Source of the DNA: Haloarchaeobius amylolyticus
Lineage (GTDB): Archaea; Halobacteriota; Halobacteria; Halobacteriales; Natrialbaceae
Assembly (NCBI RefSeq): GCF_026616195.1
Contig: NZ_JANHDH010000001.1
Location: 2,108,001 to 2,172,000, forward strand
Reading direction: 5' to 3'
Length of the DNA stretch: 64,000 nucleotides
The position numbers and the translations under genes were made by a program. Numbering within the stretch: the stretch's first letter is position 1; every line of letters begins with the position of its first letter. The notes beneath the pieces are model-generated. The model did not search any database. It worked only from the letters and a program-made list of their open reading frames with translations, and was not told the DNA's origin. Of this stretch, positions 22,082 to 25,291 are shown in pieces.

Positions 22082-23539
22082 TCAGACATACTCGTTCACC
22101 TCTGCCATCAGGTCGGTGTGGGCGTCGCCGAGGGCCCCCTGTTTCGACTCGAGTTCGTCGGTGTCGGTGGTGAGGGTCGCCTCGGCCGCTTCGAGCGCAG
22201 CGGCGACCGCCCCGGGCGCGGGGCCGCCGACCGAGTCGCGCATCGCCACGCTCTCGGCCGGGTCGAGTGCGGCCTCGACCGCCGACTGCTCGACGTAGGT
22301 GTCGAGCGATTCGCCGAGGACCGCCTGTGCCGCAGCATCGAGCGCCGCGTAGTCGGCGCCGGACTCGCCCGCCTTCGCCACGAGTTCGTGGGCGGTGCGG
22401 AAGGGGACGCCCTCCATCGCCAGCAGGTCCGCCACGCCGGTCGCGGTCGAGAAGTTCGAGCCGGCCGCCTCGGCCAGCGCCTCTTCCTCCCAGGTCGCGG
22501 TCGCGATGCCACCCGCGGCCACGCCGACCGCCTCGGTCACGGCATCGACCGAGTCCCAGACGTGCGGGGTCGCGTTCTGCAGGTCGCGGTTGTACGCGCG
22601 GGGCAGCCCCTTCAGCGTCGTCAGGATGCCCGTCAGCCCGCTGTTCGCCTCGCCCGCGACCGAGCGGACGAGTTCGAACGTGTCGGGGTTCTTCTTCTGG
22701 GGCATGATCGAGGAGGTCGAGGAGTAGTCGTCCGAGAGGTCCAGGTAGCCCTGGTTCGCGAAGATGACCACGTCCTCCGAGAGGCCCGAGAGGGTCGTCG
22801 CCAGGTTCGCCATCGCCGAGGCGACCTCCACGAGGAAGTCGCGCGCCGAGGAGGCGTCCATCGAGTTCGTCAGGACGCCGTCGAAGCCCAGCAGCTCCGC
22901 GGTGCGCTCGCGGTCCACGTCGAAGGGGGTGCCGGCGAACGCGGCCGCCCCGAGCGGGCTCTGGTTGACGCGCTCGAAGGCGTCGAACAGGCGCGCCGTG
23001 TCGCGGGCGAGGGCCTGCTCGTAGGAGAGCAGGTAGTGCCCGACCGTCGTCGGCTGCGCGTGTTGCAGATGCGTGAACCCGGGCATCACCGTGTCGGCGT
23101 GCTCTTCGGCGCCCGCGACGAGCGCGGCGCGCAGGTCACAGACCGCCTCGATGGCTTCCAGGACGTCCTCGCGCAGGCGCAGGCGGATGCAGGTCGCCAC
23201 CTCGTCGTTGCGCGAGCGCGCGGTGTGCATCTTGCCGCCCTCGGGGCCGACCTGCTCGATGACTGCACTCTCGATGGCCTCGTGGACGTCCTCGCCGTCG
23301 GGGAGCATCGCGTGCCCCTCGACCTCGACGACGTTCAGCGCCTGCAGGATGGTGCCCGCCGTCTCGGCGTCGACGATGCCCTGCTCGGCCAGCATGACCA
23401 CGTGGGCGCGGTCGACGGCCACGTCGGCCGCGAAGATGCGCTCGTCGTCGTCGAGCGAGGAGAGGAAGCCGCGGGCGGGGCCGCCGCTGAAGCGGTCGCC
23501 GCGGACGGCCGTCCCCTCGTCGCTCTCGTCGCCCGTCAT
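22082..23539 (-). CDS. argH: argininosuccinate lyase
   Basis: This 485-residue fumarase-superfamily enzyme splits argininosuccinate into arginine and fumarate. The superfamily signature is SSIMPQKKNPD, with the mobile-loop serine just before it. HTARSRNDEVAT and TPGFTHLQHAQP-like segments (seen as MPGFTHLQHAQPTT) form the other active-site regions. The start lies two bases after the argG stop, so the two are co-transcribed. Downstream, 195 bases separate it from argW, which has its own promoter. Confidence 0.94.
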   Translation of the reverse strand: MTGDESDEGTAVRGDRFSGGPARGFLSSLDDDERIFAADVAVDRAHVVMLAEQGIVDAETAGTILQALNVVEVEGHAMLPDGEDVHEAIESAVIEQVGPEGGKMHTARSRNDEVATCIRLRLREDVLEAIEAVCDLRAALVAGAEEHADTVMPGFTHLQHAQPTTVGHYLLSYEQALARDTARLFDAFERVNQSPLGAAAFAGTPFDVDRERTAELLGFDGVLTNSMDASSARDFLVEVASAMANLATTLSGLSEDVVIFANQGYLDLSDDYSSTSSIMPQKKNPDTFELVRSVAGEANSGLTGILTTLKGLPRAYNRDLQNATPHVWDSVDAVTEAVGVAAGGIATATWEEEALAEAAGSNFSTATGVADLLAMEGVPFRTAHELVAKAGESGADYAALDAAAQAVLGESLDTYVEQSAVEAALDPAESVAMRDSVGGPAPGAVAAALEAAEATLTTDTDELESKQGALGDAHTDLMAEVNEYV

Positions 23540-23540
23540 C

Positions 23541-24791
23541 TCAGTCGTCTGCGGGGAGTTCGACGTCGTCTGCCTCGGCCTGCTTCGCCACCGAGTTCGC
23601 GAGGCGCGACTGGAAGCCGTGGTACTTCGCCACGCCCGTCGCGTCCTCCTGTTCGATGCCGTCGACCGTCTCCGTGTTGAACGAGGCCGCGGACTCGGAG
23701 TAGACCGCGAACTCGGACTCGCGGGAGACCACGCGGACCATCCCGCCCTGGAGCTTGACGGTCACCTTCCCGGTGACCTTCGTCTGGCTCTGGTCGATGT
23801 ACGCGTTCAGGCTCTGCATGAGGGGCGCGTCGACGAGGCCCTCGTAGGCCTTCTGGGCCCACTGGTTCTCGACCTGGGGCTTGAAGTCGCGCTCCTCCTT
23901 CGTGAACACGAGCTGTTCGAGGCCCTCGTGAGCCTCGAGCAGGACCGTCGCGGCCGGGTGCTCGTAGTTCTCGCGTACCTTCAGGCCGAGCATGCGGTCC
24001 TCCATCATGTCGGTGCGGCCGACGCCGTACGCGCCCGCGAACTCGTTCAGGTACTCGATGAGTTCGACCGGCTCGTAGGACTCGCCGTCGACGGCGACCG
24101 GGTAGCCGTTCTCGAACGTGATGTCGATGGTGGTCGTCTCGCCCGTCGGGGCGTCGGTCCACTCGTAGATGTCCTCCGGCGGGACGTAGCTCGGGTCCTC
24201 GAGGTTCTTGCCCTCGACCGAGCGGCTCCAGAGGTTCGTGTCGATGGACCAGTCGCCCTCGTTGCCGCCCTCGACGGGGAGGCCCTTCTCGTCGGCGTAC
24301 TCCTTCTCCCACTTGCGGGTCAGGCCGAGTTCGCGGACCGGCGCGATGACCTCCAGCGAGGAGTCACGCCAGACCGCCTCGAAACGCAGCTGGTCGTTGC
24401 CCTTGCCCGTGCAGCCGTGGGCGATGCCGGTGCAGCCCTGTTCTTCCGCGACTTCGAGGATGGCCTTCGCGATGACCGGGCGGGCCATCGCCGTCCCCAG
24501 GGGGTAGCCCTGGTAGGTCGCGTTCGCCTTCACCGAGTCGAGACAGAGTGCCGCGAACTCGTCCTTGGCGTCGACGACGTAGTGTTCGAGGCCGAGCGCC
24601 TCGGCGGTCTCCTCCGCCTCGGCGAACTCCGCTTCCGGCTGGCCGACGTCGACCGTGACGCCGATGACCTCGTCGTACCCGTACTCCTCTTTGAGGAGCG
24701 GGACGCAGACCGTGGTGTCGAGGCCGCCCGAGAACGCGAGTGCTACCTTCTGGTTCGATTCCGTCGTGGTGTCCGATGTGTGCTGTGTCAT
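23541..24791 (-). CDS. argG: argininosuccinate synthase
   Basis: This 416-residue enzyme condenses citrulline and aspartate using ATP. The PP-loop motif AFSGGLDTTV near residue 20 binds pyrophosphate, and GIAHGCTGKGNDQ is the characteristic citrulline/ATP segment. The start MTQHTSDTT is the first ATG. Unlike most genes here it has no TATA box at leaderless distance. The nearest good one is about 205 bases upstream, so argG appears to have a long structured 5' leader with its own short ORF (24882-24968). No clear Shine-Dalgarno sequence precedes the ATG. Confidence 0.94.
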   Translation of the reverse strand: MTQHTSDTTTESNQKVALAFSGGLDTTVCVPLLKEEYGYDEVIGVTVDVGQPEAEFAEAEETAEALGLEHYVVDAKDEFAALCLDSVKANATYQGYPLGTAMARPVIAKAILEVAEEQGCTGIAHGCTGKGNDQLRFEAVWRDSSLEVIAPVRELGLTRKWEKEYADEKGLPVEGGNEGDWSIDTNLWSRSVEGKNLEDPSYVPPEDIYEWTDAPTGETTTIDITFENGYPVAVDGESYEPVELIEYLNEFAGAYGVGRTDMMEDRMLGLKVRENYEHPAATVLLEAHEGLEQLVFTKEERDFKPQVENQWAQKAYEGLVDAPLMQSLNAYIDQSQTKVTGKVTVKLQGGMVRVVSRESEFAVYSESAASFNTETVDGIEQEDATGVAKYHGFQSRLANSVAKQAEADDVELPADD

Positions 24792-24813
24792 TCCGTGTCC
24801 GTGTTGTGACCGA

Positions 24814-24827
24814 CGGACTACCGTCCG
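24814..24827 (-). promoter_or_regulatory. small hairpin just upstream of the argG start
   Basis: CGGAC and GTCCG form a perfect 5-bp stem with a four-base loop. It is 23 bases before the argG ATG in the putative leader RNA and could affect start-codon access. A hairpin this short can occur by chance in G+C-rich DNA. Confidence 0.35.
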
Positions 24828-24876
24828 CCGTCCGTGTGTAGTTGCAAACTGTGCGCCGCGATGGTGAGAATGTAGT

Positions 24877-24892
24877 AGGCCCTAACGGGCCG
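24877..24892 (-). promoter_or_regulatory. hairpin spanning the end of the argG leader ORF
   Basis: On the minus strand GGCCC-GTTA-GGGCC forms a perfect 5-bp stem with a tetraloop. The last arginine codon and the TAG of the leader ORF are in it. A ribosome stalled at the arginine codons just upstream would keep it from folding. No T run follows, so a simple intrinsic terminator is unlikely. Confidence 0.4.
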
Positions 24893-24968
24893 GTCGTCGT
24901 CGCGGTCGTCGGACAGCAACACCGCTCGCGGAGAACGAGTGCGCGAGGTGACTGCGGTGTTGCTTCAT
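24882..24968 (-). CDS. putative arginine-rich leader peptide of argG-argH
   Basis: This 28-codon ORF starts at the ATG at 24968, about 28 bases from a TATA box (24996-25001), so it would be the first frame read on a nearly leaderless mRNA. The peptide starts MKQHRSHLAH and ends AVRRPRRRPAR; five arginines in the final run are CGA codons and the last is CGT, directly before TAG. An arginine run in the leader of an arginine-synthesis gene is what ribosome-mediated attenuation would need. The stop codon lies within a GGCCC/GGGCC hairpin, and codons 2-18 form an 11-bp stem. Caution: haloarchaeal DNA often reads Arg-rich out of frame from GAC/GTC-rich sequence, so the run may be accidental. Confidence 0.5.
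   Translation of the reverse strand: MKQHRSHLAHSFSASGVAVRRPRRRPAR
24915..24964 (-). promoter_or_regulatory. large stem-loop inside the argG leader ORF
   Basis: AGCAACACCGC (24915-24925) and GCGGTGTTGCT (24954-24964) are perfect 11-base reverse complements separated by 28 bases. In the RNA this stem would begin at the second codon of the leader ORF and would be melted by a translating ribosome. Confidence 0.6.
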
Positions 24969-24995
24969 CGTACCCAGAGTTAGAATCATGTTGCT

Positions 24996-25001
24996 ATTAA
25001 A
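24996..25001 (-). promoter_or_regulatory. TATA-like box of the argG leader transcript
   Basis: TTTTAA on the minus strand (within GGTTTTAATAGC) is the best TATA match upstream of argG. It lies about 28 bases before the leader ORF start and about 205 before argG itself. Confidence 0.55.
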
Positions 25002-25096
25002 ACCTTGCGGGGCAGCAAAAGTTACAGGTGTGAGAATGACACGCACATTATCGGTTTGGAACTGGTTTTATGTCCAGCCGACCCCCACGATAGCGT

Positions 25097-25291
25097 ATGT
25101 TCGACAACCGAGCCGACCTCGATGTGGAGTCGCTGCTTCGCATCGTCCTCGTACTGGTGGTCATCTGGATCGGGCTGGAGGTCGTGGGCGAGATACTGGG
25201 CATCTTCGGCGCACTGCTGGGGCCGTTCCGGCCGCTGCTCGGGCTCGCCATCATCGCCCTCATCGTGCTCTGGCTGACCGACAACCTCTGA
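25097..25291 (+). CDS. small two-helix membrane protein
   Basis: This 64-residue protein has a short acidic N-terminus (MFDNRADLDVESLLR) followed by two hydrophobic helices (about 15-40 and 44-62). A TTTTA box at 25066-25070 lies about 27 bases upstream, giving a leaderless start. It belongs to a group of very short haloarchaeal membrane proteins with no known role. It is followed after 43 bases by the 2'-5' RNA ligase-like gene. Confidence 0.75.
   Translation: MFDNRADLDVESLLRIVLVLVVIWIGLEVVGEILGIFGALLGPFRPLLGLAIIALIVLWLTDNL

Follow-up and report, generated by a model that had tools for sequence, protein, structure and literature searches.

Does the short, arginine-rich open reading frame that precedes argG in the haloarchaeon Haloarchaeobius amylolyticus control its operon in the manner of a bacterial leader-peptide attenuator? 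The initial annotation of this locus proposed as much, which is of interest because attenuation is, to our knowledge, so far known only from bacteria. We addressed the question by computational analysis of a window of 64,000 nucleotides (contig NZ_JANHDH010000001.1, positions 2,108,001 to 2,172,000; all coordinates given for this locus are those of the window) and by comparison with other haloarchaea. On the evidence presented below, we consider it likely that the leader is an arginine-sensing leader-peptide attenuator of argGH.

The gene argG, for argininosuccinate synthase (23541–24791, minus strand), is directly followed by argH, for argininosuccinate lyase (22082–23539, minus strand), both identified by matches far above curated cut-offs. 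The elements that had been described upstream, namely a TATA box, a 28-codon ORF ending in AVRRPRRRPAR, an 11-bp stem and a 5-bp hairpin at the stop codon, are all present on the minus strand, as are the further features described here. The TATA box of the leader promoter, TTTAATA, lies at 24995–25001, and the ORF, MKQHRSHLAHSFSASGVAVRRPRRRPAR with a TAG stop codon at 24884–24882, occupies 24882–24968 and is kept across the genus and the class. The ORF as such was thus correctly called, with the exception of a start placed near 24973; the actual ATG is at 24968. It follows the TATA box by about 33 nt, a spacing from which the leader transcript is predicted to start at or beside the ATG, that is, to be leaderless.

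Two hairpins are associated with the ORF. Hairpin I is a perfect 11-bp stem within it, formed by a 5' arm in codons 2–5 (AGCAACACCGC, 24954–24964) and a 3' arm in codons 15–18 (GCGGTGTTGCT, 24915–24925), the latter just 5' of the arginine run. This run, CGA CGA CCG CGA CGA CGA CCG GCC CGT (RRPRRRPAR, 24885–24911), contains five CGA codons and one CGT. Hairpin II, GGCCC-GTTA-GGGCC (24878–24891), is a 5-bp GC stem located 91 bases 5' of argG, with the T and A of the stop codon in its loop. It is followed by a tail of 16 bases composed of C, U and A without any G (UACUACAUUCUCACCA, 24862–24877), a possible site of transcript release, cleavage or factor loading. The absence of a T run after this hairpin had already been pointed out and is confirmed. 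By contrast, the stems cannot be regarded as competing, as had been suggested: hairpins I and II do not overlap and therefore do not compete, and a conserved alternative pairing was not found.

Closer to argG, hairpin III (CGGCGGAC-GGTA-GTCCGTCG, 24811–24830) corresponds to the further hairpin of the initial annotation, except that it ends 19 rather than 23 bases 5' of the argG ATG (24791); it occurs genus-wide and is lineage-specific elsewhere. The whole leader in the window folds only moderately better than shuffled sequence (z −1.69). About 28 nt 3' of hairpin II lies a near-palindrome, AGTTTGCAACTA (24839–24850), kept in the genus with small changes. Opposite the argG leader, a divergent gene (25097–25291, plus strand) encodes a hydrophobic small protein of 64 amino acids with no NCBIfam match.

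Conservation of the argG leader across Halobacteria

We compared the locus with five other Haloarchaeobius genomes and with 80 further haloarchaeal argG loci. Conservation in relatives, which the initial annotation had made the touchstone of its proposal, was indeed found, since Halobacteria as a class retain the ORF frame, the terminal arginine run, the two stems and the leaderless promoter spacing. Within the genus, the ORF, the arginine run and both stems persist at DNA identities down to 78%, and nearly all of the 80 further loci possess an ORF with a C-terminal arginine run; Haloferax is among the genera with the leader. The common layout comprises a predicted leaderless ORF, an internal hairpin, the arginine run, the stop hairpin and some 15 nt of G-free tail. 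Across the class the ORF ranges from 22 to 87 codons, the leader stop lies about 80–157 nt 5' of argG, and the N-terminal two thirds of the peptide are poorly conserved.

To assess the reading frame, all ATGs at promoter distance from a TATA box were listed regardless of frame. Among 80 such ATGs, from 79 loci, 76 were in the arginine frame (one third would be expected) and 74 ran open to the same stop; as related species are not independent, these and the conservation counts should not be taken as probabilities, but the pattern nonetheless recurs in many families. For the 74 that run open, the distance from the first T of the TATA box to the leader ATG is 28–34 nt. Gaps in the ORF 5' of hairpin II, as seen in clade alignments, measure 3, 6 or 9 bases. 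The caveat that the arginine run might be a mere shadow of GAC/GTC-rich DNA is answered by the frame bias, by indels of whole codons as far as the stop-codon hairpin and, as described in the next section, by the occurrence of other cognate amino acids in leaders 5' of ilvB, pheS and trpS. Like the ilvB leader described there, the argG leader thus has the first property expected of an attenuator, a short ORF that precedes the cognate operon within its 5' leader and has its frame under selection.

CGA accounts for 255 of the 369 arginine codons (69%) in the last 14 codons of the leaders, as opposed to 19 of 1288 (1.5%) within argG coding sequence at these loci; GC-driven drift would favour CGC or CGG, not CGA. 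In 77 of 78 loci, two to five arginine codons are no more than about 14 nt away from the hairpin II 5' arm, and the last of them starts exactly 5 nt 5' of the arm in 60 of the 77 loci measured. As the leading edge of a stalled ribosome extends about 12 nt, a ribosome halted on these codons could therefore cover the arm.

Hairpin II is always GC-rich and yet variable in sequence, its arms being GGGCC/GGCCC, GGCCC/GGGCC, GGGGC/GCCCC or GGGGTC/GACCCC. When pairs were counted directly on an alignment made without regard to structure, 88.9% of cells paired relative to 81.0% in shuffles, pairing dropped to about 63% or less on sliding by one column, and 20 cells were changed on both sides compared with 7.9 in shuffles. 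A covariation-supported hairpin therefore adjoins the regulatory codons, again as expected of an attenuator. The stop codon resides in the loop of hairpin II, although some few lineages have it slightly further on, by a few codons. RNAalifold run on the same MAFFT alignment predicted no consensus structure, probably because the stems shift by a column between lineages. The element CGACGACGACCGGGCC is strongly conserved as DNA.

Within the genus one stem pair of hairpin I has been replaced on both sides, from A-U to G-C, and in other lineages the ORF-internal hairpin is of unrelated sequence. In 40 representative loci this internal hairpin is more stable than dinucleotide shuffles (mean z −2.12, negative in 39 of 40), and in Natrialbales the main helix of its counterpart is paired in 96.3% of cells, three of its pairs having changed on both sides. 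Downstream of hairpin II, the G fraction is only 0.00–0.07 over 15 nt and then rises to 0.21–0.27. The sequence adjoining argG differs by lineage, and the part conserved class-wide is the stop-codon hairpin with its tail. A conserved pairing between the arginine run and the downstream leader was not found, such duplexes being only weakly above shuffles (mean z −1.11). Accordingly, two properties of classical attenuators are missing at argG: there are no mutually exclusive anti-terminator and terminator pairings, and the G-free C/U/A tail takes the place of the U-run of an intrinsic terminator.

A second TATA box is present about 30 nt 5' of the argG ATG in 48 of 85 loci, so that some argG mRNA there would be made without the leader, which would control the longer transcript only. 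In the other 37 loci, where no second promoter was found, argG appears from its sequence to depend on the leader promoter; these include Haloarchaeobius, a genus in which no TATA box of argG's own was found. Just 5' of the second promoter, loci of Haloferacales and Natrialbales (e.g. L007, L041 and L062) often carry a palindrome-like element, TAGAGTGCTCTA in L041 and L062 and TATAGG-ATCTCTA in Haloferax, which by its sequence looks like an operator. Motifs similar to the near-palindrome of the window, at a similar distance from hairpin II, occur in some loci without a second argG promoter.

Leaders at ilvB, pheS and trpS

We scanned the window and 2.0 Mb of its contig for a TATA box, an ATG, 5–65 codons and a GC hairpin over the stop codon. 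Six matches were obtained, and only two of them, at argG and ilvB, had a G-poor tail, so that the combination at argG is more than chance. The same scan of a further 0.79 Mb of the genome revealed no other amino-acid leader; together, the leader scans covered about 2.85 Mb of 4.6 Mb.

The ilvB gene heads an operon whose later genes resemble ilvC, leuC and leuD. Its leader peptide is MRQSPAADGARLASSGAVVRTLSIVGAV, closed by a stop codon, and the hairpin is TGTAGGGGC-CGTCTA-GCCCCTACA. In all 30 ilvB loci from across the class the peptide has IVG(A) at or close to its end, in the frame of the hairpin, and all 29 promoter-positioned ATGs are in frame. A counterpart of hairpin I recurs (mean z −1.81, negative in 29 of 30), and the G-poor trend after the stop hairpin is likewise seen. 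Isoleucine is encoded by ATT in 26 of 30 leaders and valine by GTA in 30 of 30; in sampled genes of the H. amylolyticus genome ATT amounts to about 0% and GTA to 1.4%. A run of often rare codons for the end-product amino acid, a further hallmark of attenuators, is therefore present at both argG and ilvB. The full haloarchaeal layout, with leaderless spacing, internal hairpin, rare cognate codons, stop hairpin and G-free tail, is found at these two operons.

Cognate leaders of a simpler kind precede two aminoacyl-tRNA synthetase genes of the same genome. Upstream of pheS lies a 26-residue ORF, MAAESSHRGIAQEHGDTPGFGFFFAV, that ends in FGFFFAV before its stop codon, and a trpS is preceded by MQSAPCWRWRSFPGADSIACGVDVA, also closed by a stop codon, with the cognate stretch CWRWR. 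When 59 haloarchaea were searched with the pheS peptide, its eleven best matches, and 13 altogether, lay 610–834 nt 5' of the pheS match on the same strand; the leader is thus co-located with pheS in 13 genomes, and the trpS peptide with that trpS in six. Neither the pheS nor the trpS leader shows a clear stop-codon hairpin, and they share only the ORF with cognate codons with argG and ilvB.

These two leaders have parallels elsewhere. A Phe-rich peptide, pheM, similarly precedes the phenylalanyl-tRNA synthetase genes pheST of E. coli, but the haloarchaeal leader belongs to another domain, is unrelated in sequence and lacks a clear hairpin at its stop. Among the uORFs of Haloferax volcanii transcripts with long 5'-UTRs, Table 2 of PMC4983044 lists one of 26 amino acids 5' of pheS and one of 23 amino acids 5' of the Trp-tRNA ligase gene, corresponding in gene and size to the leaders described here; argG and ilvB are absent from that table. 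The table gives only size, isoelectric point and mass, and the section concerned does not discuss cognate codons, amino-acid content or attenuation.

Proposed mechanism and alternative explanations

What comparison shows, at the level of sequence, is the ORF with its frame and its run of rare codons, the two hairpins and the G-free tail, as well as the spacing of these elements and the like layout at ilvB. From these we infer ribosome stalling, masking of the hairpin, and transcription, not translation or RNA stability, as the controlled step. Transcription would begin at the leader ATG, and as the start is predicted to be leaderless a ribosome could bind the 5' end as soon as it emerges and would translate through hairpin I. 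With charged tRNA-Arg plentiful, the ribosome would cross the rare CGA run, terminate inside hairpin II and depart, leaving the hairpin and the G-free tail exposed, so that most transcripts would stop or be cut before argG. With charged tRNA-Arg scarce, it would stall on the CGA run, its leading edge covering the 5' arm of hairpin II; the hairpin would be blocked and RNA polymerase would read into argGH. Such hairpin masking would make an anti-terminator stem unnecessary. As for hairpin I, right behind the ATG, our guess is that it may allow ribosomes to load only until its 3' arm has been transcribed, or may slow RNA polymerase.

In H. volcanii, 59% of transcripts were terminated in vivo at a hairpin preceding a 3' end (PMC7237163), and U-tracts bound by aCPSF1 are the best-supported archaeal termination signal (PMC8716108). 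Since a U-tract is absent after hairpin II, the output step, with its presumed termination at this place, is the weakest link of the model. This leaves some room for a ribosome-sensing switch that acts after transcription, an option already raised in the initial annotation, either on argG translation, by re-initiation or by opening of downstream structure, or on protection of the mRNA from cleavage at hairpin II and the tail. The missing U-run and the additional hairpin near argG in Haloarchaeobius would suit such a switch; the lineage-specific nature of the argG-proximal sequence, as opposed to the class-wide stop-codon hairpin and tail, and the failure to find a conserved pairing of the arginine run with the downstream leader argue against it. 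We regard it as unlikely, though as the most serious of the alternatives.

Attenuation might also be real and yet respond to the general rate of CGA elongation, set by one tRNA-Arg species or its modification, instead of to the arginine level. The very strong preference for CGA over the usual CGC favours this reading, but the ilvB leaders use rare codons of their own amino acids, as expected if rarity merely sharpens cognate sensing, and we find a CGA sensor highly improbable. Just as doubtful is that the ORF is an independent gene, encoding a small arginine-rich peptide, which happens to lie 5' of argG, the hairpin being its terminator. Such a gene would account for the separate promoter and the stop hairpin, and for the TATA box that argG itself has in 48 loci; it is at odds with the poor conservation of most of the peptide, with the lack of a detectable second promoter in 37 loci including those of the window genus, with the like layout at ilvB built on a different, cognate amino acid, and with rare codons, which conflict with selection for efficient peptide synthesis. 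Least credible of all is that only a DNA or RNA motif matters, an operator or structured RNA, with the ORF and arginine run as by-products of GAC-rich DNA: conservation of CGACGACGACCGGGCC speaks for it, whereas the 76 of 80 ATGs in the arginine frame (74 open to the same stop), the codon-sized indels, the placing of the stop codon in the loop or at most a few codons away despite changing stem sequences, and the cognate codons at other operons all speak against it.

Most likely, then, the argG leader acts by ribosome-mediated attenuation, with the attributes of a leader-peptide attenuator other than exclusive stems and a U-run. Like the bacterial trpL, hisL, leuL and ilv attenuators, it has a short leader ORF with cognate, often rare codons matching the operon, a GC hairpin beside these codons and a second, ORF-internal hairpin reminiscent of the pause hairpin. 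Unlike them, it is archaeal, its ORF is predicted to be leaderless instead of having a Shine-Dalgarno start, its stop codon lies inside the downstream hairpin, and the hairpin is followed by a G-free C/U/A tail. Having neither a U-run nor a competing, conserved anti-terminator pairing, it is set apart as a variant of ribosome-mediated attenuation.

Another parallel is E. coli tnaC, whose stalled ribosome masks a Rho loading site, the G-poor rut site; in the argG model the ribosome would likewise cover an adjoining downstream signal without refolding, and the run after hairpin II is also G-poor. The two differ in what is sensed, which for the argG leader would be charged tRNA, read at several cognate codons, and for tnaC is free tryptophan in the exit tunnel. 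They also differ in the factor: Archaea are not known to have Rho, and the one acting at argG, if any, would be aCPSF1/FttA. The fungal arginine attenuator peptide (AAP) of arg-2/CPA1 is similar in that a uORF controls an arginine biosynthesis gene; it stalls ribosomes at high arginine via the nascent peptide and has no run of arginine codons.

Range of the element and further candidate leaders

A covariance model of the arg element, R1, run over the sampled genomes, matched in 36 of about 53 Halobacteria, the misses being concentrated in one genus. In about 240 other genomes of the phylum it gave two marginal matches, near chance expectation, and in the H. amylolyticus genome the argG leader was its only strong match. 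Rfam 15 yielded no curated family at gathering score for the element; its one match, elsewhere in the searched region, was at chance level. According to a 2021 paper, neither transcription attenuation nor antitermination is known in archaea (PMC8448881), and we found no report of an archaeal leader-peptide attenuator in a literature search that covered mainly open-access journals. The archaeal leader-peptide attenuator is thus likely to be novel.

Because the argG leader is so widely kept and because cognate leaders also precede Ile/Val, Phe-tRNA and Trp-tRNA genes, archaea probably use a form of attenuation. More specifically, we think it fairly likely that amino-acid-specific, ribosome-mediated attenuation from leaderless ORFs operates class-wide in haloarchaea at argGH, ilvBNC-leuCDB, pheS and a trpS at least, with a ribosome-masked stop-codon hairpin and no anti-terminator as the core at argG and ilvB. 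If this is true, Archaea would have their first described attenuation mechanism, one that presumably evolved independently of its bacterial counterpart. Confirmation would mean that archaea link transcription with translation in order to sense amino acids, that attenuators can reside on leaderless mRNAs, and that a design as simple as the masking of a hairpin suffices. With a conserved set of cognate leaders at hand in haloarchaea that are genetically tractable, the question of archaeal attenuation can be tested directly.

No cognate leader was seen in the sampled sequence at hisD, hisB, trpD/E, thrC, ileS, tyrS, leuS, cysS or ilvC. Two putative Trp leaders, MHSDSTIKWW before nadA and MSKNVWW before an Lrp/AsnC gene, each ending at a stop codon, were rejected, their ORFs not being conserved within the genus. 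An Lrp/AsnC regulator gene (G000:C1:226217, minus strand) has a short 5' leader with a possible small hairpin, TGGTGG-TGAAT-CCACCA, and a mini-ORF that other genomes of the genus do not conserve. Upstream of valS (G000:C1:1328350, plus strand) lies a leaderless-type ORF, MEHPAAAVVRP followed by a stop codon, with two rare GTA codons; a search of the sampled genomes for this exact pattern matched in the H. amylolyticus genome only. Finally, at a leuA-like gene outside the window (G000:C1:688582, plus strand), a promoter-positioned ATG opens a 25-codon ORF, while the LeuA-like reading (IEFFQGTLNATTEFDTARVFDTTLRDG...) lies in the +1 frame and is not preceded by a start codon; the cause is a sequencing error, decay into a pseudogene or programmed frameshifting.
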